Below are positions 8,120 to 60,650 of a DNA stretch of 64,000 nucleotides, in pieces; within the stretch, counting starts at the first letter, position 1; the number at the start of each line of letters is the position of its first letter. The notes under the pieces are model-generated. The model saw only the letters and a program-made list of their open reading frames with translations, was not told the origin of the DNA and ran no database searches. The stretch spans positions 5,786,336 to 5,850,335 of the forward strand of contig JASSKH010000019.1 of NCBI GenBank assembly GCA_031763025.1, in the 5' to 3' direction. The translations under genes were made by a program, and so were the position numbers. Source of the stretch: Macrocystis pyrifera. Taxonomy: Eukaryota; Sar; Phaeophyceae; Laminariales; Laminariaceae.

Positions 8120-8735
<616 letters not shown>

Positions 8736-9043
8736 GCCGGACCCCTCGTTACGTGCTGCGTCTGCAGCGGCGGATGCTCTATGCGGACTCCGCTTCATCG
8801 GCCGATAACCCAGCGACGAGTGGTTGCGTTGGCGGGAGTGTGCGCACGAGTACGCTCGGCACTCCCGAGGATTGGAGGCGCAACGAACTCGTCGAAAGGG
8901 GGAGCTGTACCAGAGGGGTTGCAACCCGGCGGTTGATGGACGTGTTTCGCCACGGGGCGGGACGCCATCTGGATAGCAAACGGAGTGGGTCGTGACAATG
9001 GGATCCCGCCGGACCTGGGCGGGAGCGGGTTGATCCACCTAAG

Positions 9044-18656: not shown

Positions 18657-19451
18657 TCATACCCCTCGCTCATCCTCCAAAGGCAGATTCAACAAGAACC
18701 TACGATGAGACTTAAAAGGGGTCGCAGCAAGGGATTTCGTCAAAATATCCGCGTGCTGCTCTTCCGAAGCTACGAACTGAATATCGATCTTCTTAGCACG
18801 AAGTAGCTCTCTGACAAAATGAAAACGCACGTCGATATGCTTACTCCGAGCAGAACTAAGAGGGTTCTCAGCCAACGCTATGGCCCCCTGGTTATCCTCG
18901 AAAACCCGGACACATGATCCGCTTAGCTCTGGACAGATAAACGACAACACCGCGCCCGTAAACAAAGCTTCCTTCACCACTTCACCCAGGGCGACATACT
19001 CTGCTTCTGCTGTCGACAACGTAACACACCTCTGCGTGCTACTTGCCCAAGTGACGGCCGCACCCCCTAGAGTAATTACCGTCCCCGATACCGAGCGCCT
19101 ATCCTTCGACTTATCCGCATAATCAGCATCACTATACGCAGTCAAATCCAAACCCGAGCCCCGTACAAAACTCAATCCCATAAACCTGGTCCCGTGGAGG
19201 TAAGCCATAATCTTCAAAACTGCCTTCCAGTGGCTCTCCGTTGGGTTGTGGGAGTGGCGCGCCACAGCACGCACAGCGTTCGAGATGGCCGGCCTCGTCA
19301 TGGTCGACAGCCACATCAAGCTGCCCACAGCCTCCCTGTACGGCCAGCCTCCTCCAAGTTGAGTTAACACCAAAACGATTTTGCATGCTCTCAATGAACG
19401 CCTTCTGCGTAATCTCCAATGTCCCCAGTTCCCCGTCGCGTTTGAAAGCAC
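18657..19451 (-). pseudogene. Copia RT end and RNase H
   Basis: The frame holds the copia signature YREAVGSLMWLS near residue 38, then RNase H with YSDADYADKSKDRRS (Asp108), STAEAEYVAL (Glu149), FEDNQGAIALAENP (Asp186) and the closing SKHIDVRFHFVRE...HADILTKSLA block. RNase H removes the RNA strand during reverse transcription. The first 30 residues are out of frame: a one-base shift near 19365 separates this frame from the RT frame upstream. The downstream end, near DILTKSLAATPF, looks complete. Confidence 0.93.
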
Positions 19452-19640
19452 AATCAGTGTACCAAGTCAGTTCGCCGAGGTTATTCGTGGGAAATTTCAT
19501 AGCTAGCACGGCATGGAAATCTCTGCATGTCTCATCCGGTCCTGCGATCACGATGTCATCTACATGAACGGCCATGATCAGTTCTCTACCTTGCCATTCA
19601 CAACCATGCGAAACACACACGGGTCAGACCTACACTGCTA
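19368..19640 (-). pseudogene. Copia reverse transcriptase fragment
   Basis: Part of the RT palm remains. AVHVDDIVIAGP carries the catalytic Asp-Asp pair, followed by FPTNNLGELTWY and ITQKAFIESMQNRFG. Just upstream, DPCVFRMVVNGKVE is in another frame, so a second frameshift lies near 19575. Fingers and the first catalytic Asp are missing. It runs into the RNase H frame after another shift. The enzyme is not functional. Confidence 0.9.
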
Positions 19641-20029
19641 CGGACTGTGGGGGCGGTTCTACGTCTTCCGGGAAACCACTCGGCATGCACACGCTCAACT
19701 CCCCTTTGTTCTCCACAGCAGGTCCTCCGGCCATCAAAGCCACTGCGTCCTCCGTCGTCCAGGACGTACGGTCCAGCACACTCCCAGGCTTCGTCCACGA
19801 CTCGTACGCTCCCGCAAGCAGCGCGTCTGCTGCTCCTTCATCCACCATTTCCTTGTGCACGGCAGGTTCACCCTCCAGGCGTTGGCTCTGACCTCGGGTC
19901 CGGCCCCGTACTGTCGGGAGGAGCCGGCCCCAGCTGCTGAGCTCGTGTGCGGTCCTCCCCGACAGGACCGCGGGGGGATCCTCACCGTTCCTTTGGACGG
20001 TGTCGGAGGCTGATGCTGCGCCCGGGTCG

Positions 20030-20395
20030 TTTCCGGCCCTCCCTGTTGGGACCGAGGAGGCGTCCACGGCGCCCCCTTGAGACGAACCTATCGTCTCGGC
20101 TGTTTCGGCCCTTCCTGCCGGGACCGAGGAGGCGTCCACGGCGCCCCCTTGAGACGAATCTATCGTCTCGGCTGTTTCGGCCCTCCCTAACGGGACCGAG
20201 GAGGCGTCCACGGCACCCCCTTGAGACTAATCCATCGTCTCGGGTGTTTCGGCCCTCCCTGCCGGGACCGAGGAGGCGTCCACGGCGCCCCCTTGAGACG
20301 AACGCATCGTCTCGGGTGTTTCGGCCCTCCCTGACGGGACCGAGGAGGCGTCCACGGCGCACCCTTGGGACGAACGCATCGTCTCGGGTGTTTTT
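20030..20395 (-). repeat. 72-bp tandem repeats in the gag-pol linker
   Basis: CGTCTCGG recurs at 20092, 20164, 20236, 20308 and 20380. On the minus strand each unit encodes 24 residues of the type DASSVPAGRAETPET. The reading frame is kept across units except for one stop at about 20227. Confidence 0.92.
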
Positions 20396-20443
20396 CGCCG
20401 CCGGCCTCGCCGGCGGCAGGTGCCTGCTTTGCGGTTCAAGGCG

Positions 20444-21598
20444 TCACACGCCCAGTGGGACGCTTCCGCCCACAACGACGTCGTGGCCGGGAGTTTCGCG
20501 CCAGGAAAAAAGCTCTTCTTTCGATGAGGGGCAGACATCAGCAGCGTGCCCCAGCCCGTTGCATCGACTGCATCGATCCGTGGACGTGGGACAGGCATCG
20601 GCAGAGTGCCCGCGTCGCTGGCATCGACTGCATAGCTTCGCCGTGCACTCGCTCCTCCAATGGCCCTTCTTGCCACACTTATGACACTTGCCCACTGGAG
20701 TACTTCCGCTGGCGGCTTTGGCGCTGCTGCCATTGCCACCAGCAGCCGCGGCCGAGCCACCACCGTCCTCGTTGGTGCCTCTACCGCGTCGTCCGTGACC
20801 CCGTCGTCCACCTTTTTTTTTGCCATTTCCTCCACCTTTCCCGCGACCACCGCTACCGCCGCCGCCGCCGGCGTACATGGCATGGCCTGCTTGGCCAGCG
20901 TTGGACCCCTTCTTCCTGTTTCCAGAAAGTCGGTAATGCCGTTCTCGAACAGCCTTGATGATGTCATCTCGGCCGATGCTGTCACGTGATGCCAGGTTCC
21001 GAGCCTCCAAATCGTATTCAGCGCCAGGGTATGCACCCCATCCTCCTGTCCTCCCATACTGGTCTGGATGACCCCTCGGTGGGCCAACCTCGACAGGCAA
21101 CGCAGTTCCTCCGCGTCCAGTTGTTCCCAATTCTGGCAAGGTGCCCTCACGCAAATTTGTCTCTTCTTGTTCTGCTGCAATATCCCTTGCCAGGCCTGCA
21201 GCAGCAGCAGGGATCTCTCTCACAGCATTGGGTACTGTCCTTTGTGGGCTCTTCCCTACAGCAGCGCTACCCCCGGCGCTGCCGGACTCCGATCGACCAA
21301 CGCCTGCTTCAACAGCAGCAGTAGTCTCTCGTACTTCAGCAGTGCGTACTGCCCCTCTTGGGCTTTCCCCTACAGCAGTGGTTCCTACCTCTGCTGGACT
21401 TTCTCCTACAGCAACGCTGCCTTCAGCGCTGCCTGGCTCCGATCGACCGTTGTTCCTCATGAACTCGGCCATCATTTCCCTCATGGCGTTCAGCATCGAC
21501 GCCTCCCTGTTCTCCATCGCCAGCTTGACCTCGCGTCGCAGCGTTTCAACGTCACTCCAAGAATCGTGCTCTTCTTGAGCCGATCCCTTCGAGAGCAT
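20444..21598 (-). CDS. Copia Gag with three zinc knuckles
   Basis: A 384-residue frame. The N-terminal part is a charged, repeat-like helix region with GESPAEVG-type repeats. A Gly-rich stretch follows, then three C-x2-C-x4-H-x4-C knuckles near the C-terminus (CHKCGKKGHWRSEC, CSRCQRRGHSADAC, CSRCNGLGHAADVC). Knuckles package the RNA. The usual copia gag N-terminal capsid motifs are not obvious, so the N-part may be rearranged. The frame ends at 20444, while the neighbouring frame carries on into the 72-bp repeats, so a frameshift lies near 20450-20530. Confidence 0.88.
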   Translation of the reverse strand: MLSKGSAQEEHDSWSDVETLRREVKLAMENREASMLNAMREMMAEFMRNNGRSEPGSAEGSVAVGESPAEVGTTAVGESPRGAVRTAEVRETTAAVEAGVGRSESGSAGGSAAVGKSPQRTVPNAVREIPAAAAGLARDIAAEQEETNLREGTLPELGTTGRGGTALPVEVGPPRGHPDQYGRTGGWGAYPGAEYDLEARNLASRDSIGRDDIIKAVRERHYRLSGNRKKGSNAGQAGHAMYAGGGGGSGGRGKGGGNGKKKGGRRGHGRRGRGTNEDGGGSAAAAGGNGSSAKAASGSTPVGKCHKCGKKGHWRSECTAKLCSRCQRRGHSADACPTSTDRCSRCNGLGHAADVCPSSKEELFSWRETPGHDVVVGGSVPLGV

Positions 21599-35609: not shown

Positions 35610-36112
35610 CATGTTCTATGAGCTCCTGCCAGAACCCGTTACCAAATGCATGCTTAATATGTTGTATTTGTTTGGCCAATTATTTTGTTTTCGTATTTTT
35701 TTGGAAATTTGGGTCGTAAGAGATCCACAGTTTGTTTCCGGCGGAACAAAAACGAAACAAAACCTTCGCCAACGGTTTAGCGGGGGCTCATAGAACACAC
35801 GTGACATGGTTCAGGGCCAATCTCCGAAAAACGGCGTGGATATTTTGACTCATGTGCGGTATAAGTGCCAACAAAATGTGGCGTTGCCTCGTAATTACTT
35901 TTTTTCAGAATATTTTCAACTTCTGGGGTTAAAAGCGACTTAGTAGTGGTCCTACTCAGTCAGTTCTTCGAGTATTTTCGCGATTATTTCACAAGACAAT
36001 GTCATGTCGACAGTACGCACACCCGTAACAGTACCGGCTTTGTGGTGCCGGCTGCCCGCCATGGCAGCACCGGTGGAATCGCTCGGCACCTACGGGATTA
36101 GCCAATGTGGAA
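35610..36112. other. Unassigned
   Basis: No recognised feature in this stretch. Confidence 0.4.
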
Positions 36113-36137
36113 GTGCTTACTACTACTACTACTGCTG

Positions 36138-36173
<36 letters not shown>

Positions 36174-36240
36174 ACTGCTACGACGACTACTACTACTACT
36201 ACTGCTACTACTGCTACTACTGCTACTACTGCTACTACTG

Positions 36241-36286
<46 letters not shown>

Positions 36287-36315
36287 CACTACTGCTACTA
36301 CTACTACTACTTACT
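36113..36315. repeat. TAC/TGC microsatellite
   Basis: About 200 bp of TAC triplets with TGC and GAC interruptions. Poly-Leu, poly-Thr, poly-Tyr and poly-Val frames here are artefacts. Confidence 0.95.
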
Positions 36316-38228
36316 GCTGTTGTTTGTTCCTGGAATCGGGTTGTGCCGGGAAAATACCCCGAAAAAAGACGGGTTCGTCCTACGGAAACACCCTTCTACT
36401 CAAGAACTACTGCTGCTGTATTCTTACTATTCACGATACACCATTTGGTCGCTATCGACAGCCCTAGACCATTAATAGCAAGAAACAAAACGGCCCATGA
36501 CGCCCTCTTCCGCTGTTCTTCACCATCAGTATGATACCAAATACCAGGTACCTCGTACCATTATGTGACTCTCAAGTAGATTTTGCGATCGGCATTCATT
36601 CGTGGCGGCCAAAATTTTGGGGCGATGCTTGAACAAACTGGTCTTCGTTTTTGCCACACAGTTTGTGTGGTCGTTGATACTTGTACTACTGCTGTAAAAT
36701 ACGGTACGCACACACCTGGTATGCTATGCGTCAAACGCTTGATGTAAGGGATATTATACTCACACGCGTACAACATAGCGAAATAACCCCCCCCTCCGAG
36801 CACAACGCTGCGGAGAATGCAGCATGCAGCATGCCCCTTACTCTGTACTTCCTGGTGAACATATTGCTGTAGGATTAGCATATACGAGTATCAGTGACGT
36901 ATATAAATATGCATGTACAATTAGTAAACGTTTGTTTCATTTGCCTCCCGACAAGGTGGAGGGCAGTATTATTGATTCTGAATGGGATTGCCGACACGAC
37001 TCGTCGACTATCATGCCTTACCACCAATCCTGTCCAAGCAACTCTCCTTCCCTGCGTTTACTCAATTGAATACGCACTACCGCCCTCTAAGCAATGACTG
37101 CACCTGCTACGATATCATCACCGGGTTACACATTGCTATGTATCTCTTCGCCGTGCGTCCTACTCAGCGTCTACATTCCACCCCCACGCCATGGAAAGTA
37201 ATCTGCCCTCCTCCCCCACCCTTCTCCCCCTTGTGGCACAATAAACTTTGACGAGAGAGTTGAAGAATGAGTGTTTGGTTCTCGATGTCAGTTCGCGCTC
37301 CATACGTACGCGTATGCAGCAACCGCGGAGTAACCTTGTGAGCAGGATCCCTTACGTACAAAACAGCACGCGCGTGTGGTGTCCACCGTCCGTCATCCGA
37401 ACACGGTGCCTGCCACGAAATAACTTTGTAGCCGCGGCCAGTGCACACAAATCTCGCTGAGTAACGTGGTGCTCCGTACACACAAAATCCCCGTGGAGAC
37501 CGGATCCCGCCCAACCAGTTCCGCTTCGTCCCGTCATAGCTGGATCCCGTCCCAACGAGTACCGCGGCAGCCGGATTCCGCACAAACAATCTCGTCGCGT
37601 CTCGTCGCGGCTAGGTCCCGTACAAACTACGCCGTTGTGTCTCATGGTGGCTGAACCTCGTCCCGAGGAAAGTCCTGTCAATTCGTACTCGACATGCTCT
37701 CCCATGCACAACCTCTGCGTAGGACCCGAAATAGTCAGCCTTTTCATTCTGAATGAATAGTGCCCTGCACATATTGTCCGAGGTCAATGAAGCAATAATT
37801 CAAACAACGTCGCACTGAACGGTTCTCTATGGTAGGGGTGAGCATAGAAGCTGCTGTGCTCCATGTATCACGAGTGGCGAATGCATTATCGTCGGATCGT
37901 TTCTGCAGCAAGCTAATAATGCCCGCAAGCCTTTGTTCTGTACGTTGGACAGCGGTGCAACGTTTGTTGGGAAAGGCCGAGATGTTGAGATGTCTACCAC
38001 GTGTACGAGTACAAGAAGCAGATGCCTTTGAAGATCATTTTGAAGAATATTGATGGGATTGTCGTGGTAGTATAGCTACGTACGGGCAATTTACTGACGT
38101 TGCCCCTCCGGAGAGCGAGATGCCCAGAGACTTACAGGGTACTGATGTGTGCATGACTACATGCTCAAAAGAGCGCCATAGAACGGTAAGAAGTATTTTG
38201 TATTGAGGGTTAATGTTAAGATCAAGCT
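36316..38228. other. Unassigned
   Basis: No secure gene. The frame 37829-38053 (+) contains SVRWTAVQRLLGKAEML, faintly like the central part of hAT transposases, but too short to call. 37480-37640 is rich in CCCGT/CCGCG motifs with loose repetition. Confidence 0.35.
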
Positions 38229-38490
38229 TGCGGGACACTTTGTATCCCTGGACAGGTCTGCCTTTTAAGTCGGTAAACATTGTACTCACATGTGTTGTTT
38301 GCTTAGCTATAGAAGAAGAGCAGTTTTATTCCTTTCGTGCACGCGGAGACTGAGACCAAGCTCGTGCTCCTCTGGAAAACCCCTGGTTTTCCATCTAAGA
38401 TACGCCTTCCAAGTACTACAAATACGTTCCCAGTGACTGAACCCAGGTAGTTACCGGGCTTTTAATCTCATACAAGACAATATCTTAACA
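38229..38490 (-). repeat. 3' LTR of the gypsy element
   Basis: It is 262 bp; on the plus strand it starts TGCGGGACAC and ends TCTTAACA. It differs from the 5' LTR by about six substitutions and one indel (roughly 97% identity by eye). Confidence 0.92.
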
Positions 38491-39055: not shown

Positions 39056-41998
39056 TCAGCTGTCCACGGCGGCACCTCGAGATTCACCTACGTTACGCTG
39101 GACCCCCCGTGTAAACGCGCTAGCCAAGTGAATTTGCAGACACCAAGAACCTCGTACAGCTCTCGTCGAAGTCGTGTAGCGCGCCGGAGAAAGAGGAAGC
39201 TTGATTGGTCCCGGGGCGTCCAAAAATCGAACCAAATATACTCCATCCGTCGGTGTAGTTGCGCTGATTTTTCCGAGCCACCACAGACTGTCGTCGCCCT
39301 TGTACCAAACGTGGGCCCCGTTGGGAAGTACAGTGTTGCTGTATCGGCGGAGCCAATCGGCGTGCGATACGCAACCATAGTCAGGTGCCAGAAACCGCTC
39401 GCCGTTACTCCGAGAAAGCTCCCGTTGTGCCGCGCCAATTCTCATTCGGCGACACAGGCGGTTGGTTTGGCGGTGCTGGTTCGGGGTGCCGGCCCAGTAG
39501 CGCAAACTTGCGTGGTGAGAAAGCTGAAGGTCCATTTCCCGTTCCCAGGATGGCCGGGAAAGTCCCTTCCAGTGCGTCTCGTACATCACCGCGATGACGC
39601 CACCTCGACCTCTAACCGATTGATGTCCAGTAATCTTTTCCACTTCGAGTTGTTCAAGAGGGGTCGAAACGTCGTCCTCGGTGACGTGGTACGGAGGGGA
39701 TTTCTTGGAGAAATTGTTGAGCACGTATTGCGTCAACCCCGCCGGCAAATACTTCGGCATGTCACCACGGTCGTGGGGGTTGGCACAGGGCTTGCAGCGT
39801 TGAGCAGATACGCGCCGGCGAGCCTCGGCGCCGGGCATATCGGAAGGAAGATCCAAATACAGGAGCTTTGCTCCGAGAGGAGATCCATCCGGGGTGTCCG
39901 CTGAGGAGCAGGGGCCAACTGCGAGAACTTTGTAGGGGCCCGTCCAGTTGAGTGAGAGTTTGGCCTTGAGGACCTTGGCGTCCGTGTCTGGTTTCGCGCC
40001 CCGGCGGATGAAGGCCGCCGTATTGTACACCCACACCAAACCACCAACGTCAAATTTGGGGACCGGACGCAGAGCGTCGGAGAGGGCGGAGTTGCGGCGG
40101 TTCACGCGAGCGACAGTGAGGGTGTGGTGTTCTCGAACGATGTCGTACGCGCGCTGCTGGCGATCCGTCGCCAAGTCGCAGTAGGCGAGGTGGTCGCGGG
40201 CCAAGCTCTGGTGGCCGGCGACTCCAGCACGTTCGAAAATCGTGAGTGGGAGGCGTGGGAGCCGACCCATATGTACCTCGTTGGGAACCAGACCCGTGGC
40301 GGCACTGACGGAATTGTTGTACGCAAATTCGACGTGAGGGAGCTGTTCATCCCAGTTGTTTTGGAGCTCGTTGACGACCATTGCCAACATCTGGACCATC
40401 GTGTGGTTTACACGTTCCACCCCACCGTTGCCGTTTGGGTGGTAGGAGCTGGTGGCAATTTTTCGAACCCCGAGAAGCTGATCTATGGCGTTCGAAAACT
40501 TGGAGCAGAACTGGAAGCCGTTGTCCAAGAGGATGCTGCGCGGGCACCCCCAAAGAGGGATATACCGGTTGATGAGAATGTTAGCCGTGCCCTCAGCGGT
40601 GAACTCGGCCGCTGTGACGGCGTACATGTCAGGTCGGCGGCTGAAACGATCAGTGAAAAGAAATATGTAGGTATTACCTCGACGCGTCACCGGGAGGGGG
40701 CCGAAATAGTCGATGCTGACGGCGATGCCGGGCCCTTCTGGCAAGGGCAACGTGACGGAGGGCCACCGGACTGTCTGCCGCGACGTTTTCCGTGCCTGGC
40801 ACTTTAAGCAGTTGCGTAGCCACCACCGGGTCCAGATGCTCATGCCGATCCACCAGTAGAAACGTTCGAGCATACGTAGGGTGCGCGCGGTTCCTAGGTG
40901 GCGGGAAGCCGTAGAATGGCAAGCTTGCATGACCCAGGGGCGCATGAGCAGCGGAACATAAATGCGAATAGGCTCGTCGTTCAATAAGCAGGCCGTACGA
41001 CCCACTGGGCGTGGCGTATCCAACGCAGGTGGGGGAGGCGGCTGTCGGACAAGTAGAACGATGCCCGCGTCAGGGGTGTGCAAGCGGCCTTTGGTGGCCA
41101 GCTCTTGAACTTCCGAAAAGGGAGGGCGCTGGTGGGTAGGGAAACCTGATAAAAAGTCGTCTGGCAAAACTTCCGGTCGGCCAAGGGCTATGTAGCGCAT
41201 GGCGGCATTGCACGCGGGCTCAGCCTGTTGTTCCCGAGCCCAATCGGCCTGCGAATAGCGCGCTGCGGAATCACCGAACTGAAACTCGGCAGCTGCGCCG
41301 AGGGCGTCCAAGGCGATCGAGGTGACGGGAGGTGCGTCAGTTGGGGGCGGAAGTCGTAAAAGAGGAGTTCTCACGGGCTCGGTGCGGTCGCGGCCGGACG
41401 GGATGGGTACCGTCGGGACGGACGAGGCGGCAGGGGTCGGGGCCAAAACGACGGGTGCGGGCGGTCTCGGCCGTAGGGCTCGCAACGGGGTGGTAGCACG
41501 CCGGGCTGATGGTCTAGGGGTCCCGCCGGGCCCGAAGCCATAATCAACGGCAGGCGGCACAGCGCCAGTGGCGGCGGCTGTTCGTCGACGCGTCCGCGAT
41601 GAGATGCGGCCTGAAGACGGCAAAACGTTCGGAGGCGCCGGGTTGCCAGGCGGCGATGGGGTAGACGCGGCCGGATCAGTGATCACGGCGGAATCTTTTC
41701 CCTGTAAAGTGCTCGTCGGGGGAGGAGCATGCTGGGCGACAATCGTCGCTGCAGCGGGGGCTTTCGCAGAGCCCTGGCATGAAAGGGAAGACGCGGCCGG
41801 AGCAGTGCTCACGGCGGAATCTTCGACCTGTAAAGTGCTCGTCGGGGGAGGAGCGCGCTGGGCGACAATCATCGCTGCAGCGGGGGCTTTTGCAGAGCCC
41901 TGGCCTGAGAGGGAAGACGCGGCCGGGGCAGTGCTCACGACGGGATCTTCGACCTGTAAAGTGCTCGTCGGGGGAGGAGCGCGCTGGGCGACAATCAT
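39056..41998 (-). CDS. Gypsy integrase with chromo- and Tudor-like tail
   Basis: A 980-residue frame. Residues 1-120 are 42-residue repeats of a Pro/Ala/Thr linker. The zinc-binding domain has His361, His367, Cys397 and Cys400. The catalytic core has Asp430 (SIDYFGPL), Asp492 (LLDNGFQF) and Glu528 (GGVERVN), exactly DD35E, so the active site looks intact. Residues about 785-835 are chromodomain-like (YETHWKGLSRPSWERE). Residues about 892-945 (GAHVWYKGDDSLWWLGKIS, then GVYLVRFLD) look like a Tudor/Agenet-type barrel. Integrase inserts the cDNA; the tail domains probably guide it to chromatin. The frame is cut off from RNase H by a TAG at about 42024 and a frame change upstream. Confidence 0.93.
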   Translation of the reverse strand: MIVAQRAPPPTSTLQVEDPVVSTAPAASSLSGQGSAKAPAAAMIVAQRAPPPTSTLQVEDSAVSTAPAASSLSCQGSAKAPAAATIVAQHAPPPTSTLQGKDSAVITDPAASTPSPPGNPAPPNVLPSSGRISSRTRRRTAAATGAVPPAVDYGFGPGGTPRPSARRATTPLRALRPRPPAPVVLAPTPAASSVPTVPIPSGRDRTEPVRTPLLRLPPPTDAPPVTSIALDALGAAAEFQFGDSAARYSQADWAREQQAEPACNAAMRYIALGRPEVLPDDFLSGFPTHQRPPFSEVQELATKGRLHTPDAGIVLLVRQPPPPPALDTPRPVGRTACLLNDEPIRIYVPLLMRPWVMQACHSTASRHLGTARTLRMLERFYWWIGMSIWTRWWLRNCLKCQARKTSRQTVRWPSVTLPLPEGPGIAVSIDYFGPLPVTRRGNTYIFLFTDRFSRRPDMYAVTAAEFTAEGTANILINRYIPLWGCPRSILLDNGFQFCSKFSNAIDQLLGVRKIATSSYHPNGNGGVERVNHTMVQMLAMVVNELQNNWDEQLPHVEFAYNNSVSAATGLVPNEVHMGRLPRLPLTIFERAGVAGHQSLARDHLAYCDLATDRQQRAYDIVREHHTLTVARVNRRNSALSDALRPVPKFDVGGLVWVYNTAAFIRRGAKPDTDAKVLKAKLSLNWTGPYKVLAVGPCSSADTPDGSPLGAKLLYLDLPSDMPGAEARRRVSAQRCKPCANPHDRGDMPKYLPAGLTQYVLNNFSKKSPPYHVTEDDVSTPLEQLEVEKITGHQSVRGRGGVIAVMYETHWKGLSRPSWEREMDLQLSHHASLRYWAGTPNQHRQTNRLCRRMRIGAAQRELSRSNGERFLAPDYGCVSHADWLRRYSNTVLPNGAHVWYKGDDSLWWLGKISATTPTDGVYLVRFLDAPGPIKLPLSPARYTTSTRAVRGSWCLQIHLASAFTRGVQRNVGESRGAAVDS

Positions 41999-42170
41999 CG
42001 CTGAAGCGGGGGCTTCTGCAGAGCCCTAGCCTGAGAGGGAAGACGCGGCCGGAGCAGTACTCACGACGGAATCTTCGACCTGTAAAGTGCTCGTCGGGGG
42101 AGGAGCGCGCTGGGCGACATTCAACGCTGCAGCGGGGGCTTCTGCAGAGCCCTGGTCGCCCCCGGAGGTT
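41691..42170 (-). repeat. 126-bp in-frame tandem repeats in pol
   Basis: Four units, with markers at about 41691, 41817, 41943 and 42069, each encode 42 residues including APPPTSTLQVEDS. The unit closest to RNase H has TAG where the others have CAG (SG*GSA against SGQGSA), a C-to-T change on the coding strand. Confidence 0.93.
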
Positions 42171-43335
42171 TCGACAAAAACCGAAGCGAAAGCGGCGTTG
42201 GCAGAGGGTGAAAAATCCCCCAAGCCCGGACGGCGGTCGACGGTGGCGACGGAGGCAAATACACAAGCGACGAATCTCCCCGAAGGAGCACAGAGAGGTC
42301 GTCAATCCTCATACGTGGCCCGTGTGTGCGAAAATCGCGAAAATCCGAAAAGGCGAGAGGTAGCCCACCCAAGACGGCACTTTCACTGCGGGACACCAGC
42401 CCACCCAAACCGACACCAGGGGTCGGCGAAGAGCGCGTGCGAAGCCCGCAGGCTCGGATGAGGAAGATACCACCGTCCTCGACGGGGTTGAGGCAGCTAG
42501 ACCCACTGCGGTCGTGTTCTGTGGCGGGCTCTGGCAAGCGGGAGAGAAAGTCGGCATTTCCGTTGGCGCTGCCCTTGCGGTACTCGAGGGTGTAGTCGAA
42601 CGCGGTGAGGAACTCGAGCCACCGCTGGACTCGCGCGTTGTGGTCCCCTACTTTGGCGATACTCTCAAGTGCTTTGTGATCCGAAAATATTCGAAACTTC
42701 GTACCCCACAGGTAACCTCGGAGTCGTTTGATAGCCCAGACAATGCTGCCAGCTTCCAGGTCCACCAGTGTCCAGTGCCTTTCGGAATCGAGGGTAGCGC
42801 GGCTAATATAAGCAATGGGCCGTACCGAACCGTCCGGTTGTTCTTGTTCGAGCGCGGCAACGAAACCGTCGGTGCAGGCGTCGCAGTACACGTGGAAGGG
42901 GCGGGAGCCGTCGGCTACGGCATCCCAGTCAGGGAAGACCAAAATCGGTGGGGCCGCGAGCTCGGCGAGGATCTGGCGGACGATAACTTCCATAGCCGGC
43001 GTGAAGACATACTTGACCCCCTTCCGGAGAAGGGCGGTGAGAGGACGTATCCGTTTAGACAGGTCGGGCAGGAATTTGCGGTAATACCCTACGCCGCCCA
43101 TCAGGGCGCGGACCTGCTTGAGGTTCTTGGGCATGGGCATTTTCAGCAAGGCCGAAAATGTTTCCGCATGAGGGCTTGTACCCGCGGGCGAAATAGAGTG
43201 CCCCAGAAAATTGGCGTCCGTGGCGCCGAGGCGAGCCCTCGAGGGGGAGAGCTTGAGGTTGTGTTTGCGCAGGCGTTCGAAGAGGGCTCGTATCGTCTTG
43301 ACGTGGGCCGTCGGGTCAGAGTCGAAAACGATCAC
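42121..43335 (-). pseudogene. Gypsy RT thumb and RNase H
   Basis: The frame continues the RT palm from the YLDD catalytic motif (encoded at 43347-43336, in this frame just before the first Met). It includes FLGHSISPAG, GYYRKFLPDLSKRI and PPILVFPDWD, then RNase H with Asp152 (VYCDACTDG), Glu194 (DLEAGSIVWA), Asp219 (FSDHKALE) and Asp262 (GNADFLSRLP). All four acidic residues are present. The N-terminal RT half is in another frame, and the linker to integrase is in a third frame, with the change near G/T homopolymers at about 42210. Confidence 0.93.
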
Positions 43336-43976
43336 ATCATCAAGGTAGGCCGCCCTTGTGCCAGGCCTTTAATGACTTCGCTAATCACTTTGACGAACCA
43401 GCCAGGCGAAGCACTGCTGCCTTGGGGCATGACGAGCCACTCGTAAAGGCCCGTGGGAGTGCAGAACGCCGTAAGAGGGACGGTGTCCTTGTGCGCGGTA
43501 ATCTGGTGGAACGAGGAGACCAAATCGAAGAGGGAAAACACCCGTCCCTTCCCCAGGGAGTCGAGGACTTGGTCCACGCGAGGGATGGGCAGCTGGCCGA
43601 GTTTGCTGATCTGGTTGAGTTTTTTGTAGTTCACGGTGATCCGAACGCCTCCAGACTTCTTCGGGATGACCACCAGCGGGCTCGAGTACGGAGAAGTCGA
43701 GTGCTGGATCAGACCTGCCGCTAGGTACTGATCCAAGGTGACCTCCACTTCCTTGGCCAGGATGGGGTTGATGCGGTGCGGCCTGGACGTGACAGGAGCG
43801 CTTCCTTCCGGGACCGAGATCACGAAAGGCATCAACGAGCAGGAACCAAAATCCGACTTGGACTTCGAGAAAACGCCAGGAAATTCGCAGAGAACGCCCC
43901 CCAGCTGTTCAATGACCGCAGGGGTCCAGCCTGTGCCGTGGAGATCAAAAGCCACCTCCCGCAGATGCGTCGGCAA
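43332..43976 (-). pseudogene. Gypsy reverse transcriptase, fingers and palm
   Basis: It contains SPYSSPLVVIPKKSGGVRI, then NYKKLNQ, then FSLFDLVSSFHQI with the first catalytic Asp at residue 151, then FCTPTGLYEWLVMPQG. The frame runs into a stop four residues after QGR, because a base appears to be missing between about 43348 and 43355, immediately before the YLDD motif. RT is therefore split exactly at its active site. The protease frame upstream is different, with a long C/G run at about 44063-44073 as the likely slip point. Confidence 0.93.
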
Positions 43977-44025: not shown

Positions 44026-45762
44026 TCAAGCAGTGCAGGCGAGGGCGAGGCTGGAGCTGCGAGGGGGGGGGGCAGTAACTGCTGAAACCGGACACACCTC
44101 ACCTAGTCCGGAGGGAGGGCTGGGGGCTCGGTTGTCCTGCTGCAAAACGTCCAGCGGGACGCTCAGCAGTGGGGCGTGGGCGACGCCGAGGACATCCACC
44201 GGCTCGAGAGCCGCCACTCCAACGAGGGGAAGAACCTGTCGTCCGGAGGAGACGAAGTGCTCCTCGATCGAGGGTAGGTCGGGCTGGGGCATCATGTCGA
44301 CCAAGTAGTGTCCAGTGAGGGCCGGGGAGCCATCGCTTCGAACCAAATTAACAGCAAGCAGCTGGGGATCGCCGGACAGGGTGACGCCTGCTGCGCCCTC
44401 GTAGCGTAGATGGAAGCCTCCGCCCGAAGCGGCGGAGTCGATGGCGTACACGGACATGCCTGTCGGGGCGTGGTGAACTAACTCCAGCTCGCCAAAAACG
44501 CGTTGATCAGACGGCCGAGGTGGCAGAGAGCGGTAGGAGCGGCTATTAAAGCGCATCCAGCTGTCACGTCCTAATAGTACAGCATGCTGCATCACTGAGG
44601 GGGGGACCACGCAGGCCCAAACTGGGAGGGAGGAAGTAGGCTCATTTTCTCGAAAAAATTGGACGCTCAGGCGCACACTCGTCGAAGTCTTCAGAGGGGC
44701 CGATTCGCCAAAACCCCCCCAAGAACGAGGGGCACCTTTCTGCTCGCACGCGAGGGATGCCGCACCAACCGAGTGCATGCGATCCAAAACATCGCGTCGG
44801 ATGAAAGTCTGCGGGGAGCCAGTGTCAAGAAGCGCCACGCAACCAAAAGGTGCAAGAACGCCAGCTCTGCTGTGAATCGCGATTTTGGTTGTAAAAGAGG
44901 CGTCATCGAGGGTAATGGTGCCCCCGACGAAGCAGGGGCCGTGTTCTGGCAGCGCGAGGGAGGGGTCGACACTAGGTGCGACAGCCAAAATCTCGGGGCT
45001 GTGGTCAGCCGGCGCGTTAGAACAATAGGTCGAAAACTCCTCCACAGGAGGACCTGGGCAAGTGCGGGCCACGGCCAAAGGGCGGGACGGCGCTGGTGTA
45101 ATCTCATGAATGCTGTCAGGTCTGGTTGGGGTGCAGAATTGATGAGAGCAGGCGGGGTATGATCGGAGGGTGTCGCGAACGGCGGAAAGAGCTTTACCGA
45201 GCAAATTTTTTCCATGCCACCGAGAGGGGTCGTGAGCTTGGGGGTCGTCTGCCCGCAGACCGATGCTCCACACGGCATCAAAAGGGCTGGCTTCAGCCAA
45301 AATTTTGGTGCCAGTGCTCAATAGGTGCTGCTTCATGACCGGGTTCTGCGAGAATTTGGCAAAATTACCAGCAAGGACGGCGTCTTCCCGAACACGGTCC
45401 CAGATAGCGCAGTCGAAGTTATGCACGCCTCCACCGAGGCGTTTGTGCTCGCGTGGGCCTGGCGAGGCCATAATCCGCTCCGCTATGCCGTGGTCCTGGA
45501 AAAGGCGAGCCTTTTAAGCCATCGTATACTGCTCCGCGCAGGAATATGATACATCGTCGACGACAAAAGACGAGGGGGACCACTGCGAAAAATAAGAGGG
45601 GGGCTGCCAGAACAGTACCACCCGCTCCGTTGTGTACTCGAGAGTAGGGTCAAAAACCGACGGTGCCGAGTCCTCGGTGGCCGCAGTTGCGGCGTGTGGG
45701 GGGGGGAGTGGACTTCTCTGAGAACGCTGAGCCCCTGGTGCACGAAACGAGTCCGGTTCCAC
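44026..45762 (-). pseudogene. NADAR (YbiA-like) domain fused to aspartic protease
   Basis: One frame from 45762 to 44026 is broken only by a TAA at 45511-45513. The NADAR domain spans about 45624-45165 (some 153 residues, the normal size): FSQWSPSSFVVDDVSY, SCAEQYTMA, then after the stop KARLFQDHG, PREHKRLG, FDCAIWD, NFAKFSQNP, LAEASPFDAVWSIGL and WHGKNLLGKAL. The invariant E, W, EASP-x-D and N residues are present. About 115 residues later CVALLDTGSPQTFI (Asp at 44826-44824) is the retropepsin-type protease active site, which would cut the polyprotein. NADAR enzymes cleave N-glycosidic bonds in ADP-ribose-type or riboflavin-precursor substrates; its role in this element is unknown. Confidence 0.85.
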
Positions 45763-46667: not shown

Positions 46668-47309
46668 TCAGTTACCGGCCCGGAAGGTGCCTGGCTGGCG
46701 TCCATTCGGGTTTCCGCCCGAGGTATGCGAGGCACCGTAGCGAACTCCCGAGACGGGAGTCGGGGCGGAAGGGGTAGGGGCGGTCGAACCACCATGAGGG
46801 CCGGAGTGAGACTGCTGGTGTCCTCGTGCCGCGTGTGTATTGTAGCCGTCACCTTGTCTGTGTTGCTGACCCTGGTCGTGATGTTGTCCACACAAGTGGC
46901 CGGGACGAAGCCTGTGTTTCTTCTGGTTGTATTTGTTCGGTCGTGAATTGTGCTCGCGGCGGTGTCTGATCATGCGTTCTTGCCAACGACGGAACGCCTC
47001 GCCGTCGTCGCCGAGCGTTCCGAGGTCGGGGTTCAAGATACCACTAAGGTTTAAAAAGGGATATCTACACTGTCGAAGAGAGTGTGTGTCTTCGTGACAG
47101 TTTAAACAGCGCCCTCGGTTTTCGCTGAGGGCAGCTGCGCGAGCGGAAGATGAAAGTAGGCCGCTCCAGAGGGGAGGGTTCTCGGTCTGGATGGACATGC
47201 AAACGGCGTGAACTTCGGCATAGTGGTGTTCTTCAAGGGGCCAGCAGTTGGAAGAGGTGTCAAGCCACGGGTCGAGGTAGTCAGGGATGGATTTGTGGAC
47301 ATTCATCAC
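46668..47309 (-). pseudogene. Nucleocapsid part with zinc knuckle
   Basis: A 213-residue frame in phase with Gag. The knuckle is CLNCHEDTHSLRQC, with Cys68, Cys71, His76 and Cys81, the standard C-x2-C-x4-H-x4-C RNA-binding motif. A His/Gln/Ser-rich basic tail follows. It is separated from the capsid part by an in-frame TAG at 47415-47417 and ends at a TGA at 46668-46670. Confidence 0.82.
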
Positions 47310-47414: not shown

Positions 47415-48578
47415 CTACGCACCCGTCGAAGAAGCAGGCAAATAAAAATATTTTTCGCCGTTGACGGCAGGTGTCTTATTATTCGCAAGAGTCTCGAAAG
47501 CTAACCACATGACATCCAAAGTGCCGAACGGCCTCGATACCGTAGCCAAAACTCCCGGGTACAGCGTCGGCATCAAGCTAGGGTACTGCTCGTTCACTGC
47601 CATCCGAACTACCTCCAAAACGACCTCCACTCCCGGTGCCAAAACATGCTCAGTCCCCGTCGCTGCAGACACCACCCCTCGCAATGCACGACTAAAATCG
47701 CAAAAAGGGGTCCCGTTAGCCACGCCAAAATTATCCAACTTGGTGTAGCTGGCCCCCGTGTTGGTGCGGTCGAAGTGGTTGCTCAGCAACCTCAGGAGGA
47801 GCGTGAACGCCTCCGGTCCCGACGATCCTGCTGCGAGGGCGCGCGACACCTGTTCAAACAAATCATCCATCAAGGTAGTGAGAGGGGCGGTCGTAGGCTT
47901 GTCAGGCGTGATGGCGCGCGCGAAGGATTTCTTGAGAGGGTACTCCCAACCGGGGATCCAATTAGTAGAACTAAGGCCTTCATGGCTGCCATCGTTGCAC
48001 ATCATGAGAATATCACAGGAGGAGGCCTTGACCGAACGCGTGAGTTGCTGCGCGGCCTTCGTTGTGGAGAAGGCGAGTGGAAGGTTCTCCGCTGGGGCCC
48101 TCGTCTCGGCGGCCTGACTGGTCTTGGAGGAAGCAGCAGCCCGGGCAGCCCGCAGCGCTTCACTGGCTCGAGATATGGAGTCTCGGGCGCAAGAGGCGGA
48201 GCGAGCGGCTTCCCCGGAAGCCGTGGCGGCAGCCGTGGCGACGGCGGCGGCGGCCGTGGAGGCGCGGGCGGCAGCTGCAGCCGCGAGCTCGGCCGACACA
48301 CGCGTCTGCGCCCGACGACTAGCCGTTGTCGCCGAGGCAGCCCCAAGGGCCTCGGCGGTGGCCAAAGCCTGCTCGGCCGCGAGGACGTCGGGGTGGGTGC
48401 CCGCGGAACCCGGAGCCCGCGCGGCCGCGGCAGTGTCGGCCTGGCCGGGCGCGGGGCGTTCGGCGGTTGTCGCCGCGTCGAGGCTCGGATGGGTGGCCCA
48501 ATGCTGGATCACGACCGCCTGCTCCTGCGGCGAGAGGGAGGTCCACGCTCCAGGCAGTTGAGGGGGGCGCCTGGGCAC
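47415..48578 (-). CDS. Gag capsid-like protein of the gypsy element
   Basis: A 387-residue frame. Residues 60-170 form an extremely Ala-rich, probably coiled-coil segment. Residues about 180-380 look like a folded capsid (SCDILMMCNDGSHEG, WIPGWEYPLKKSF, LDNFGVANGTPFCDFSRALR). It ends at a TAG beyond which the same frame remains open to the zinc knuckle. By position and composition this is Gag. No closer family assignment is possible by eye. Confidence 0.75.
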   Translation of the reverse strand: MPRRPPQLPGAWTSLSPQEQAVVIQHWATHPSLDAATTAERPAPGQADTAAAARAPGSAGTHPDVLAAEQALATAEALGAASATTASRRAQTRVSAELAAAAAARASTAAAAVATAAATASGEAARSASCARDSISRASEALRAARAAASSKTSQAAETRAPAENLPLAFSTTKAAQQLTRSVKASSCDILMMCNDGSHEGLSSTNWIPGWEYPLKKSFARAITPDKPTTAPLTTLMDDLFEQVSRALAAGSSGPEAFTLLLRLLSNHFDRTNTGASYTKLDNFGVANGTPFCDFSRALRGVVSAATGTEHVLAPGVEVVLEVVRMAVNEQYPSLMPTLYPGVLATVSRPFGTLDVMWLAFETLANNKTPAVNGEKYFYLPASSTGA

Positions 48579-48945
48579 TGTCCGGGTCCTCGGCCGCCGG
48601 TCCTGCGTCCTTCTCGGTAGCCAGCCGCTCGTCTTCTGAGTCAGGGGGTTCGAAGTCCACGGCGTCGTCCAGAGTCGTGGGGCCCGCGGGCTCGGGTGTC
48701 CTCGCTCCCGAAGAGGGGGAGGAGCCGTAAGTCCTCAGGCCGCTGGGAGACCTGGCTGGGCTGGGTGATCCCTCCCATGCTTTTGTTGTCCGTGACATAC
48801 TGAGGCGGGGGCGGACGGAAAACACCGGGGCAAAGGGCGACACCGGGGCAGGGGGGGGGGCACCGAGGCAGGGTAGGACGGGAAATGGCGGTTCTCAGGG
48901 TCGTGGCGGGTAGAAACAGCGGCGGCAGGAGCTGCAGCTTGTGCT

Positions 48946-50499
48946 TCAGCAACTTGTATAGCTGTGATAAGGCCTGGCGCGCCATTCGGCGGGCACTACG
49001 AGCACTTGGGGAGCGAGCCTCGACCCTAGGTGGTGTCGTGATACTCTATCAAAAGCCTCGTCCCCTCTGGCAGCAGTATTATAACTCGCATCGGAACGAG
49101 AATGCTCAACCGGATCGCCGCGGGTAGCTACAGCAGTGGGCACGTCGGTACTGGAGGGCCTATCAAAAACACCATCCACTTGAGCAGCAGTATTAAAACT
49201 CGCATCGGAACGAGAATGCTCGACCGGATCGCCGCGGGTAGCTACAGCAGTGGGCACGTCAGTACTGGAGGGCCTATCAAAAGCATCGTCCTCTCTAGCA
49301 GCAGTATTAAAACTCGCATCAGGACGAGAATTCTCAGCAGAAACGTCGCGGATAGCCACAGTAGCGGGCACTCCGGTACTGGGGGGCCCATCAAAAGCAT
49401 CGTCCTCACTAACAGCAGTATTAAAACTCGCATCAGGGCGGGCATTCTCAGCAGAAACGTCGCGGGTAGCCACAGTAGCGGGCACACCGGTACTGGGGGG
49501 CCTATCAAAAGCATCGTCCTCACTAACAGCAGTATTAAAATTCGCAGCAGTAGTGGAATTTCCAGCGGAATCGGCGTGGGTGGTTACAGCAGCGGCAAAA
49601 AGGACGCAATACTGAAATCCAGTGTGCTATCTTGTGGGCGAGGAGCGGGAAAAAAATCGCGAGCGGCCGTGGTGCTCCCTCTATCAGCAGCCTGAAAACT
49701 CGAACCAGCTTTGTAATTTCCACGATCTCTGTTTGTAGCCCCTAATAGAGCAGCGCGGGAAGCAGGCTCAACAACGAAATCCAGTGTGGCATCGTGTGGC
49801 CGCGGCACGGAAAAAAAATTCAGGAGTGGCAGCATCACTCGTGGTCATCCTACGGGTACGAGCAGAGTCGGACAACAGTGGAATGCGAGGCGGAAAAACA
49901 GTCTCAAATACTTTCTCACCTGGCCCAGAAGCAGGTAGATCCAGCGGCGAAGAGCGCAACTGGGATGCCTGCAGATCGCTGCGTCCAGGATTGTCCGACG
50001 TGCTCCGGCCCGGAGCAGACGCAGCTGGCTCCACGGGCTGGCTGGGTACGCGCTCAGCGGAACGGGGTCTTCCAGGTGGCTTGGACAGCAGAGGGCACGA
50101 GCGGGGAGACAATGCTGCAAGACCCAAGGCCTGGCTGGTGGCGCGCGTCACGCGCTCTAAGGAGCGGGGGCGTCCAGTTGTCTTGGGCGGCAGAGCTCGC
50201 TCAGCCGAGCGAGGAACAGAAGGGGTCTTGGATGAGGTCCGTCTGGCGGAGGCTGCTCGGGCCCCGTCAGGGGGCTCCGGTCGAAGCTCGTTCTCCTCAT
50301 GGTCTGTTGTACAAGGCGCTCGATCCACGTCGTTCTGATGGGGTTCCTGCCTAGACTCGTGCTCCACTTGTTGGTCTGTTATACAAGACGCTCGATCCAC
50401 ATCGACGGGCCTTGGGCGGTTGGGCACTGAGGGGCCCTGGGCCTCAGTGGCTCGGCCACCGTGAGGGGAAGCAGACCTTTCCACCTCTTGAGTCTCCAT
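48946..50499 (-). pseudogene. Repeat-rich N-terminal leader ORF of the gypsy element
   Basis: An ATG at 50499, about 130 bp inside the 5' LTR, starts METQEVERSASPHGG and a 243-residue Arg/Pro/Ser-rich frame to 49768. After frame changes the 179-residue frame 49485-48946 follows, made of 114-bp repeats. This is probably the disordered N-terminus of the Gag polyprotein. No enzyme motif is seen. Confidence 0.6.
49040..49560 (-). repeat. 114-bp in-frame tandem repeats in the leader
   Basis: TATCAAAA-type markers at about 49047, 49161, 49275, 49389 and 49503 give a 114-bp period. Each unit encodes 38 residues including SRPDASFNTA and EDDAFDRPSST. Confidence 0.92.
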
Positions 50500-50632
50500 C
50501 GTGCAGTGGCCGCAACAAACTTACTCAACAACAATAGGAAAGCAAACAAAAAAAAAACAGTGACAAACAACGCAAACCGACAAAAAAGCGGAAAGTTCTA
50601 AGCCGAAGACGCCACTTGATAAGATCAACGGT

Positions 50633-50895
50633 TGCGGGACACTTTGTATCCCTGCACAGGTCTGCCTTTTAAGTCGGTAAACATTGTACTCACACGTGTT
50701 GTTTGCTTAGCTATATAAGAAGAGCAGTATTATTCCTTTCGTGCACGCGGAGACTGAGACCAAGCTCGTGCTCCTCTGGAAAACCCCTGGTATTCCATCT
50801 AAGATACGCCTTCCAAGTACTACAAAATACGTTCCCAGTGACTGAACCCAGGTAGTTACCGGGCTTTCAATCTCATACAAGACAATATCTTAACA
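50633..50895 (-). repeat. 5' LTR of the gypsy element
   Basis: It is 263 bp and matches 38229-38490. A TGGCGTC lies 18 bases inside the element on the minus strand, but I cannot assign a primer-binding tRNA. Confidence 0.92.
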
Positions 50896-53850: not shown

Positions 53851-55929
53851 ACAACAAGGTCGAATAGTGTAGAACCCTGCTTCGCTTGGATTCATGGTAA
53901 CGGTTTCCCGCTGGATGATACCGGCATACATTTCCGTCAGAGGCCATGTGCGTCGTCACAGAGCAAGAAAATATTGCAAATGCGCATATCTGATTGTACT
54001 GCCCAGTCTGTGTTGCGGATCCGGCCGCACAATGGGACGCATGTAGTCACTTCATTTCGCCCAGGTAGCGTGTACGTACGAATTCTATTCCCTCCTCGCG
54101 AGTGGTTGTTCGGGGCTTTAAAATAGAGTGTCAGGGATGCATGCCTATGACAGAAGGCTCGGGCGGCGTAGGCTATGCACACAACACGAAGAGCGCGTGC
54201 GCGCGGAACTAGAAAACTACCCTGTGTACAATATTTTAATGTGCTTCCTTGCCAAGGGTCCGTTTACGCAGTACCGGCCATTTTGAACACGAGAAAGAGA
54301 AGGGTGGGCGGGTTATAGGGCGATCGCCCTTTACCTTTTGCAATACATTTGGCTACAGTGGGATGTAGTCGTAGGGTTTCTGATGTTTTCGTGAAGTGTG
54401 CTTGATCGCATGCGATGGTCGATGGCCGCGCCGGAATAATTCGCGTTCGTGTACATCAAGCAACTCAGCGTGGCTGTTATTTCGGAACCTAAAACCGACG
54501 TACTAAACTGGCATCACAAAAGGTGCATGCAATGCCGGGAAGGGGCAGTCGCTATAATGAGCATATGTATTGCTTCAATACGCCCAGATTTCAATACGCT
54601 GAAGAGAAACATCACTACTTGGCCTAGTGAACTCAAATTGGCCGTCTCTACGGCGTCATTGTAGGCGGTTTGCAGCTTGCTGATCGACACCTTTAAGACG
54701 CGAGCCCCACTGAAGCTGCCTTCTTGCCCTTTCCCTGGCGATGATGGGGTTTGCTGAGAAGAGATCCTGAGACAGGAAAATAAGGGCAGGAGAGCCGGCG
54801 CGGCGTGCAGGAATAAGGCCGAACTTTGATTAGGTCACCATACGGCGTATACGAAGGAATATTGAGTGGTACACGCCAGGGGGGTAGTGAGTTACGAATA
54901 CAATGAATATCGGGGAAAAGGTAGCACTGTGCTAATCGAAACGCCCGAGTAAACAACTTCACGAGTAACGAGGCACTGGCTCCTACTACTGTCGAACGGG
55001 AGGAAGCGCAATCTTACTTTGGTACAGGAGGGACAGCCCTCGACAAGGCCACAGCGGCCTGCTGATCTGTAGATATTGATTGGTATATCGTTCAACACAT
55101 CGGAAACGAACGAGTCGCGCGCGGAAGGTGCATACATGGCTGTTTCACCCTCATACCAGACAACACGAATACAGCGCGCCTTCAGAAATAAAAAAAATCC
55201 GCGGAAGATGGTCACGGCATACCTATGCAGTGTGGTTCGGAGACCATTCCCAGCTTACGGTACATTCGGCGTCCACCGTTTAGTGGATCCTGCACTCTAT
55301 GGGTTGCGAACTGGCATCCCGCGCAGTAGCGTGTTGGGTATGATATACGTTCGCTACGGTGGTTGCTTCTGCAAAGCGACGCGGCAATCGTCAGACACTC
55401 GCGGAAGCAACCGTCAGCTTGCAGAAGCGCTCGAGCTGGGGTAGGCCATCGACCCCGGAGGGGGCAACGGACCTCCTGTGAATTGCGCTCGCGGCAACAC
55501 CCTGGAGCAAGGTGGCTAGGAATCCAACAGCAGTGACCGGTGACGCGGGCTGCGGTAGCATGCGTCTTGAGCAATATGTCTACAAACGCTGGTTACTTTC
55601 AGTGCCCGGCGATGCGAACCGTCGTACCGTGGCGGACATACAAGCAAAGGACGCCCATTCATCCTAACATAACGAGCACTGAAGAACGGCAGGGTGGGAT
55701 TCCCAGAAAAAGAAAGGAAAATCATGAGCCGTTGCACTGAAGTTACTGTAGTGTGCCGCAGAAAGCACCCTCTCCGAAACAAGAGATAGGAGAAGCCCGC
55801 CCTCACCAACATCCTCCGTTTCTTAGTACAGCACAGTACTTACCGAATGTGTCTTGCACAGCAGTGTCGCAGCGAGGCTCCACCCTTCAACGCCCCAGAA
55901 AATTGACTGATCTTGGGTGTAATCGAAAG
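53851..55929. other. Unassigned
   Basis: Several ORFs of 80-122 residues occur on both strands, none with recognisable motifs. Confidence 0.4.
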
Positions 55930-56378
55930 ATGCATTTATAGGCGACGCGCCCATACAGGAGGCGGGTACGAGACGGCTGCGTGCTCGTCTTGAGTTGCGG
56001 TACGACCTGCGTCGTCTGTCTATATATCTGTCCCGCCGCTTCGATGACGAGTGGTGAGGTCTGGTGTGCCTGATTCGGTGTCCGCAGCAGCATGGTCTCC
56101 GTTTTAGTTTCGGATACGGTGAGGCCTGCTGCTTCGAAAACGGTCACAATGACTGTCATCATCTTCGCAAGGCCTTCCACCGACTCAGACACAATGCCTG
56201 CATCGTCCACGTACAGCATACCCCATGCTGCCCTCCGTACGCAAGTTAGTGGGTCAACCTTCACCCCGTCCTCGCCGAGGTCCTCCTCGAGGTGAACATT
56301 TTTGGAGCCATCAAGTAGACACATGGCTCGAAAGCGGGTGGTGTCCGCAGCAGGAGTGGGGCTGCAAGGCTGGAGCAC
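55930..56378 (-). pseudogene. LINE reverse transcriptase fragment
   Basis: The frame reads VHLEEDLGEDGVKVD, then RRAAWGMLYVDDAGIVSES, then KMMTVIVTVFEAAGLTVSE, then KTETMLLRTP and VIEAAGQIYRQTTQ. Y-V-D-D is the catalytic motif C of a non-LTR reverse transcriptase (usually YADD), and the following helix and E-A-A-G-Q-x-Y segment are typical. After TTQ the reading degenerates. Motifs A and B and the endonuclease are missing. From memory the closest relatives are in brown algae; this was not searched. Confidence 0.9.
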
Positions 56379-60134: not shown

Positions 60135-60650
60135 CTATGCTAGATGAAAGTCGACCCAAGACAGCGATAACGACGATAACTGAGAGGTGAGCAAGAAGTG
60201 GCGCCAGCGCGCTACAAGGAAAGCACAACACACACACGAAACAGTCGTATCAAGCTCACGTCCATAGTGCTCGTCTTTTTCAAGGACTGGGCGGAGCAAG
60301 TCGGCGAGCTTCGCGAAACTCTCTTCAGGCATCCGAAAAGTCCTCCGGAAAGCTTTCCGGCGACGGAGGTCTTCCCTCAGCTCTGCCCACGAGAGCCGGT
60401 ACGGCTCATGGATCGGCGATCGTCTCTTGGGAACATGTGGTGTAGCTCCTGCTGTCATGAACATGCCCAGCACGACGAGAGCAGCAGCGTCGTCGTGCTG
60501 GATCGCCTTCAGCATGTTTCTGCGCCTCGCTTCTGGAAAATTATAGGGGTTAAATCGTTGTCTCGTACGACTCAATGACGAGTCCTCCGGAGACCCGGAC
60601 CGCTTCCTTCCACCTTCCATAATATGTGACCTCCCTGGCCAACGTCTCAA
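60135..60650 (-). pseudogene. PIF/Harbinger transposase N-terminal fragment
   Basis: The frame starts MRRWPGRSHIMEGGRKRSG and contains ELREDLRRRKAFRRTFRM, then PEESFAKLADLLRPVLEKDE. The pattern F-R-R-x-F-R-M-x-x-x-x-F-x-x-L-x-x-L-L-R-P-x-L is the helical segment before the DDE core of Harbinger-type transposases. After HYGRE the expected sequence stops, either at an intron or a truncation, and no DDE core (DDE_Tnp_4) is seen below 60135. It is related in class to the GGGCC elements in this window. Confidence 0.65.

Follow-up and report, generated by a model that had tools for sequence, protein, structure and literature searches.

Why would a retrotransposon keep an NADAR domain inside its polyprotein? 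The question is raised by a Ty3/gypsy-type long terminal repeat (LTR) element of 12.7 kb, which runs on the minus strand from 50895 down to 38214 in the stretch of Macrocystis pyrifera DNA analyzed here (64,000 nucleotides of contig JASSKH010000019.1; hereafter, the window). The initial annotation, which had pointed to an NADAR-like domain in this element, knew of no LTR retrotransposon described with one. The NADAR-in-Gypsy architecture is already in print, however: the accessible text of Dinatale et al. 2025 (PMC12477816) reports NADAR in one Ectocarpus Gypsy lineage, e.g., Gypsy-12_Ec32. A search of titles and the starts of abstracts, with most subscription journals outside its scope, found no other paper on NADAR in retrotransposons among those listed. 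New here are the residue-level constraint on the domain, its joint inheritance with the protease, its affinity to algal genes, and an NADAR-integrase protein (P0293). Our reading, offered tentatively and at somewhat less than an even chance, is that the Pol NADAR is a conserved, host-derived domain that would erase guanine-ADP-ribose from the nucleic acids of the element.

An NADAR domain in the protease frame

In the translation of 45762-44026 (minus strand), an NADAR-like stretch and, after it, the DTG motif of the protease share a frame that has one stop from the start of the domain to the protease. This in-frame stop, at 45514-45516, cuts the NADAR domain (about 45163..45630, minus strand). 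The piece after the stop (45165-45513) matches PF08719 with an E-value of 7e-37 (127.6 bits, profile positions 48-162 of 163), and the piece before it (45517-45762) matches profile positions 2-46 (E 0.0016, 19.1 bits; alone, under the curated cut-off of 35.1). Together, the two pieces cover nearly the whole profile, and natural sister sequences align across the entire stretch by tblastn. The assignment to NADAR is confirmed, as is its place between the Gag zinc knuckle and the reverse transcriptase (RT), in the protease frame; RT, RNase H and integrase matches lie downstream. The description of the domain as full length with its invariant residues held in part: nearly all of the profile is covered, but the stop lies inside the domain and one arginine is replaced.

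The larger piece also matches a solved structure, that of the Phytophthora NADAR 8bau (E 1e-12), whose ADP-ribose-bound form provides the residue numbering used here. The window copy keeps E43, K50, K75, W89, R93, E125, D130, and W133, whereas the equivalent of R79 is G. The residue at the E125 position, which is D in the BC4488 subfamily and H in phage types, is E, and the sequence places the domain in the YbiA subfamily of the NADAR superfamily. Membership among the DarT1-type antitoxins was considered and is ruled out by this same residue, E rather than D.

The intact open reading frame (ORF) at 45471-44026 was compared with about 5.8 billion proteins, with 8000 candidates scored, and gave at least 143 relatives at an E-value of 0.001 or better, the best 120 of which were examined. 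Two further searches with NADAR parts gave 428 (best 120 taken) and 64 relatives at 1e-5 or better. NADAR was matched in 237 of the 293 proteins gathered by similarity (numbered here with a P). In 69 of the 293, a single ORF holds both NADAR and, 105-148 residues further on, the protease motif; in none does the motif precede NADAR. By tblastn, the NADAR-protease stretch aligns in one piece with P0007 (52% identity over 531 columns), P0026 (45% over 552), and P0018 (43% over 555). In P0287, Gag with a knuckle (by eye), a leader, and most of NADAR (profile positions 2-136 of 163) share a single open frame. Sister copies with an unbroken NADAR-protease frame therefore exist, so that the objection the initial annotation had raised against itself, a host exon trapped in a single copy, fails. 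Nothing was found in favor of such an exon or of chance resemblance, either of which we would give next to no chance; both are ruled out by the 69 natural NADAR-protease ORFs and the PF08719 E-value. In this group of elements, NADAR belongs to Pol as a conserved component and is no one-copy accident.

The nearest row to the window copy in our trees is the ENA protein P0206, with 77% identity. Three proteins named Ectocarpus sp. CCAP 1310/34 (P0271, P0282, and P0286) carry NADAR together with RT and RNase H, and because of these the NADAR-bearing lineage appears to be at least partly brown-algal; in none of the three predicted proteins did a protease motif turn up downstream of NADAR. Compared by description, the window copy seems to be another family of the published Ectocarpus NADAR-Gypsy kind. 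Gypsy-12_Ec32 is reported, in the accessible text of PMC12477816, with a C-terminal chromodomain; the window element has a weak chromodomain-like stretch in its integrase ORF (about 39524-39646, minus strand; E 0.042, 14.2 bits versus a cut-off of 25.1). The Ectocarpus ORF P0271 falls in a different tree branch from the window copy.

How strongly is the domain constrained? Where rows of the 69 linked ORFs could be aligned, E43 is kept in 38 of 39, K50 in 55 of 55, K75 in 55 of 57, R79 in 53 of 58, W89 in 56 of 60, E125 in 65 of 69, D130 in 61 of 68, and W133 in 65 of 68; a second count, covering 50 of the first 120 proteins, gave a similar picture. The Pol NADAR group thus keeps the predicted ADP-ribose-binding and catalytic residues nearly throughout, R93 and D86 excepted. 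Between the window copy and 15 sisters (those with long ORFs among 120 proteins), identity is 53% in NADAR and 47% in the protease, so that the domain is as conserved as the protease of the element; it is 52% downstream of the protease and 24% in the linker that joins the two domains. Distances in NADAR and protease co-vary (r 0.968 over 31 rows, with 0 of 999 permutations as high; for 8 separated rows, r 0.763), as would follow from long joint inheritance.

Origin of the domain

The closest named stand-alone relatives, among the best 120 of 428, are brown-algal: P0123 from Ectocarpus sp. 13, P0124 from Pylaiella littoralis, and P0126 from E. fasciculatus. These proteins of 227-248 residues are 56-58% identical to the P0007 domain, contain no retroelement Pfam domain, and, in P0123, have the same catalytic residues as the Pol NADARs. 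Unlike the Pol-embedded domain, they stand alone behind a cysteine-rich N terminus. All three have the motif PGCSxPC...YC there, which has no Pfam match. This closeness to named brown-algal genes leads us to favor, with moderate support, capture of NADAR by the ancestor of the element from a gene of its own algal host over a transfer from bacteria.

Several trees bear on this choice. The quick tree comprised 137 proteins and the window copy, with only NADAR hits spanning at least 125 query positions; a starred set (96) of 37 rows includes 22 of the 23 Pol rows together with P0123, P0124, and P0126. For a more careful tree of 52 rows, 9 of 22 Pol rows were dropped as near copies and 38 of 115 other rows were kept; in it, Pol and the algal genes split off at 91/92, with the rows taken as bacterial outside. 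A further tree added 14 of 80 viral loci (15 were picked, and L008 was dropped for an internal stop). Here, Pol (less P0018) and the algal genes form a clade at 92/91 within a wider one at 91/94 that includes Chrysoparadoxa P0128 and Pylaiella P0283.

The alternative is acquisition from bacteria by horizontal transfer, which is the origin suggested in the accessible text of PMC12477816 for the Ectocarpus NADAR, or from a virus. On the one hand, that paper reports that blastp hits outside Ectocarpus are almost exclusively bacterial; in our searches, NADARs with as much as 53% identity to the algal query occur on IMG/VR contigs, and an NADAR less than 60% identical to P0121 is present in 661 phage records. 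On the other hand, besides the brown-algal identity of the closest named stand-alone rows, all 14 viral rows lie outside the Pol and algal clade in the viral-row tree, together with every one of the 11 rows taken as bacterial; the latter are outside in the 52-row tree as well. Of these 11, 3 have a bacterial name (P0159, P0181, and P0193), and the rest are labeled by tree position and source. We consider a bacterial or viral source doubtful but well worth keeping in view.

Several points weigh against the reading set out at the start, and the first group concerns origin. In the careful trees, no starred branch joins Pol and the algal genes, and in the 52-row tree the Pol rows, joined by two short rows whose kind is unsure, split off weakly (78/62). 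The divergent, long-branch P0018 shifts between trees and falls outside the Pol and algal clade once viral rows are added. A tree that forces Pol together with the rows taken as bacterial is 6 log units worse and is not rejected (p-AU 0.212), a result that also speaks for the bacterial alternative. Ten short rows carry a "retro" label: P0121, P0133, P0139, and P0149 received it after their sequences were read, and P0134, P0143, P0150, P0162, P0176, and P0206 by their place in the quick tree only, which is circular for their clade. P0122 and P0173, at first labeled ambiguous, were counted as retro in the topology test and in the viral-row tree.

One protein stands apart from the group. P0293, from a JGI metagenome (738 residues), has NADAR at residues 102-248 (E 3e-40); integrase H2C2, rve, and p58_C domains follow it directly. 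The domain keeps E43, K50, K75, E125, D130, and W133. In neither of the two trees that contain it does it join the Pol clade; it sits on a long branch of unsure place, with metagenome rows in one tree and beside a viral contig in the other. P0293 thus probably reflects an independent gain of NADAR, at a different site in an LTR-type element (neither LTRs nor RT were seen). No relatives of P0293 were confirmed among viral contigs, and the literature search described above found no description of NADAR adjoining an integrase. Other fusions of the domain were also seen: P0289 joins NADAR to a microbial PARG catalytic domain and P0285 to an ADP-ribosylglycohydrolase (the latter from precomputed domains only), making both double-eraser proteins.

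What the Pol NADAR may do

The accessible portions of six papers (PMC11543638, PMC11833690, PMC11125620, PMC9503650, PMC9303266, and PMC11481870, taken jointly) describe NADARs as hydrolyzing guanine-ADP-ribose in DNA and, where assayed, as reversing guanine-ADP-ribose in RNA and not ADP-ribose on phosphate ends. The same set describes NADARs of animal RNA viruses that reside in polyproteins with the polymerase. In print, as far as the available text goes, the roles of eukaryotic NADARs are called unclear. Because of these published activities and the anatomy of Pol, in which the enzyme is joined to protease and RT, we would take the likeliest role to be cleaning ADP-ribose off guanines of the template, primer, or cDNA, a preference held at a little under half confidence. 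ADP-ribose removal fits both the conserved YbiA-type catalytic residues and the published guanine-ADP-ribose activity.

The proposed course of events is as follows. An ancestor of the element would have taken NADAR from an NADAR gene of its algal host. Pol would be made as part of the particle, beginning with NADAR after the leader, and the domain would thus be carried in the particle. Acting as an N-glycosidase, it would strip ADP-ribose from guanines of the element RNA, single-stranded cDNA, or packaged primer tRNA. Removal would undo ADP-ribosylation, imposed by the host or by stress, that might otherwise block reverse transcription or integration.

The second group of points on the opposing side concerns this role. 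R93, a phosphate contact in 8bau, is not conserved (R in 18 and C in 35 of 60 sisters), and D86 is not kept among the linked ORFs; ligand binding in the Pol NADARs may therefore differ. The proteins behind both the residue counts and the regional identities were chosen by similarity, so that these figures lean towards conservation. The window copy itself is unable to make an NADAR protein, and the putative eraser role is proposed by analogy. To our knowledge, no ADP-ribosylating defense against retroelements has been described in brown algae.

A pocket that is not frozen at R93 and D86 would also suit a fold kept for binding (to RNA or ADP-ribose, or in particle assembly) with no catalysis. 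E43, K50, E125, D130, and W133 are nearly invariant next to a linker that is far less conserved, which argues against this, and we regard loss of catalysis as improbable. A different substrate is the subject of a second alternative, in which NADAR would help to process the element transcript, through a link to the cap, the NAD-cap, or splicing, along the lines of PMC12477816 or SNA-3. This lies nearer to the suggestion made in the accessible text of PMC12477816, where processing of RNA intermediates is proposed, but the literature available to us described no cap or NAD-cap activity of any NADAR, and the NADARs assayed are described as inactive on phosphate-end ADP-ribose; such a role seems unlikely. 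Lastly, NADAR might destroy small molecules in the particle or cell, such as reactive riboflavin intermediates or signals derived from NAD or ADP-ribose, as house-cleaning or anti-signaling. E. coli YbiA is described as acting on riboflavin intermediates, and phage NADARs have been argued to target soluble ADP-ribose derivatives; the same authors, however, in the part of their text available, favor macromolecular targets for the polyprotein NADARs of eukaryotic RNA viruses, and the Pol NADAR likewise sits in a polymerase polyprotein. We therefore see a small-molecule role as rather unlikely, and prefer guanine-ADP-ribose removal.

Known NADARs offer several points of comparison. The Phytophthora nicotianae NADAR (8bau) and E. 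coli YbiA (2b3w) are not retroelement proteins and differ from the Pol domain in R93, which varies in Pol, and from the window copy in R79. The DarT1-associated antitoxins of the BC4488 subfamily belong to the same superfamily and, according to the accessible literature, act on guanine-ADP-ribose, but have D where the Pol and YbiA types have E125. Likened by description from partial texts, positive-strand RNA virus polyproteins of animals and ORF1 of an oyster Tx1 long interspersed nuclear element (LINE) also have an embedded NADAR and an RNA intermediate or genome, although they represent other element classes. It is conceivable, if doubtful, that reversible base ADP-ribosylation is a restriction that retroelements of some eukaryotes must undo, and that a particle-borne base de-ADP-ribosylase evolved repeatedly: by capture of a host eraser in brown-algal gypsy elements, from another source in P0293, and in oyster LINEs and RNA viruses. 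Should the domain in Pol prove to be an active eraser, it would point to a eukaryotic nucleic-acid ADP-ribosylation defense that retroelements reverse, and eukaryotic NADARs would gain a substrate and a role; natural, conserved copies make the idea directly testable.

Anatomy of the element and its surroundings

Paired LTRs and the order protease-RT-RNase H-integrase identify the element as Ty3/gypsy; all of its features lie on the minus strand. The 5' LTR (50617..50895; ends TGTTAAGAT...ATCTTAACA) and the 3' LTR (38214..38490) were delimited by blastn of the two regions: they measure 279 and 277 bases, with 269 of 279 positions identical and 2 gaps. Their outer flanks read TTAA and TCAA, giving no clean target-site duplication. 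Upstream of gag, at 48932..49615, a repeat search found 114-bp tandem repeats (5 overlapping copies, spacing 114). The N-terminal part of Gag (ORF 47415..48578) has no Pfam match at an E-value of 0.1 and looks, by eye and unaligned, like the Gag portion of P0287, a natural ORF. The C-terminal part (46668..47309), in the same frame, contains one CX2CX4HX4C zinc knuckle read by eye, for which the Pfam scan gave no match. A long leader separates Gag from NADAR.

Beyond NADAR, the translation reveals a retropepsin-like protease region at 44446..44934, with DTG at 44818-44826; it has no Pfam protease match, and the sister P0007 is similar in fold to retropepsins and Ddi1. The first part of RT (43332..43976) is identified by RVT_1 at about 43356-43667 (E 6.4e-15), and the RT end with RNase H (42121..43335) by RT_RNaseH at about 42598-42906 (E 1.4e-30). 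Five overlapping copies of a 126-bp tandem repeat, found by the repeat search, lie between RNase H and integrase (41533..42281). The integrase ORF (39056..41998) matches H2C2 at about 40784-40954 (E 6.3e-13) and rve at about 40454-40732 (E 1.7e-5, 25.4 bits versus a cut-off of 32.6).

Gag is interrupted by an in-frame stop between its two ORFs, and the frames of RT and integrase differ from that of NADAR-protease. The window copy is a recent but defective LTR retrotransposon: defective because of the stop inside NADAR and the frames of RT and integrase, despite little divergence between its LTRs. No relatives of its Pol were confirmed among viral contigs; a tRNA scan of the window found none, nor did a scan of the LTR for bacterial-type promoters and terminators.

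Elsewhere in the window, a remnant of another LTR element occupies 18657-21598 (minus strand). Its ORF at 18657-19451 (minus) resembles a Copia-type RNase H end by eye, with no Pfam match, and its ORF at 20444-21598 (minus) matches the CCHC zinc knuckle PF00098. A weak RVT_1 match at 55887-56378 (minus; E 5.6e-5, under the cut-off) is perhaps a LINE remnant. The ORF at 60135-60650 (minus), which has no Pfam match, resembles by eye the N-terminal part of a PIF/Harbinger-type transposase. A long ACT/CTA-type microsatellite lies at 36086-36329, and an ORF at about 8010-9038 consists of long single-residue runs, that is, trinucleotide repeats.
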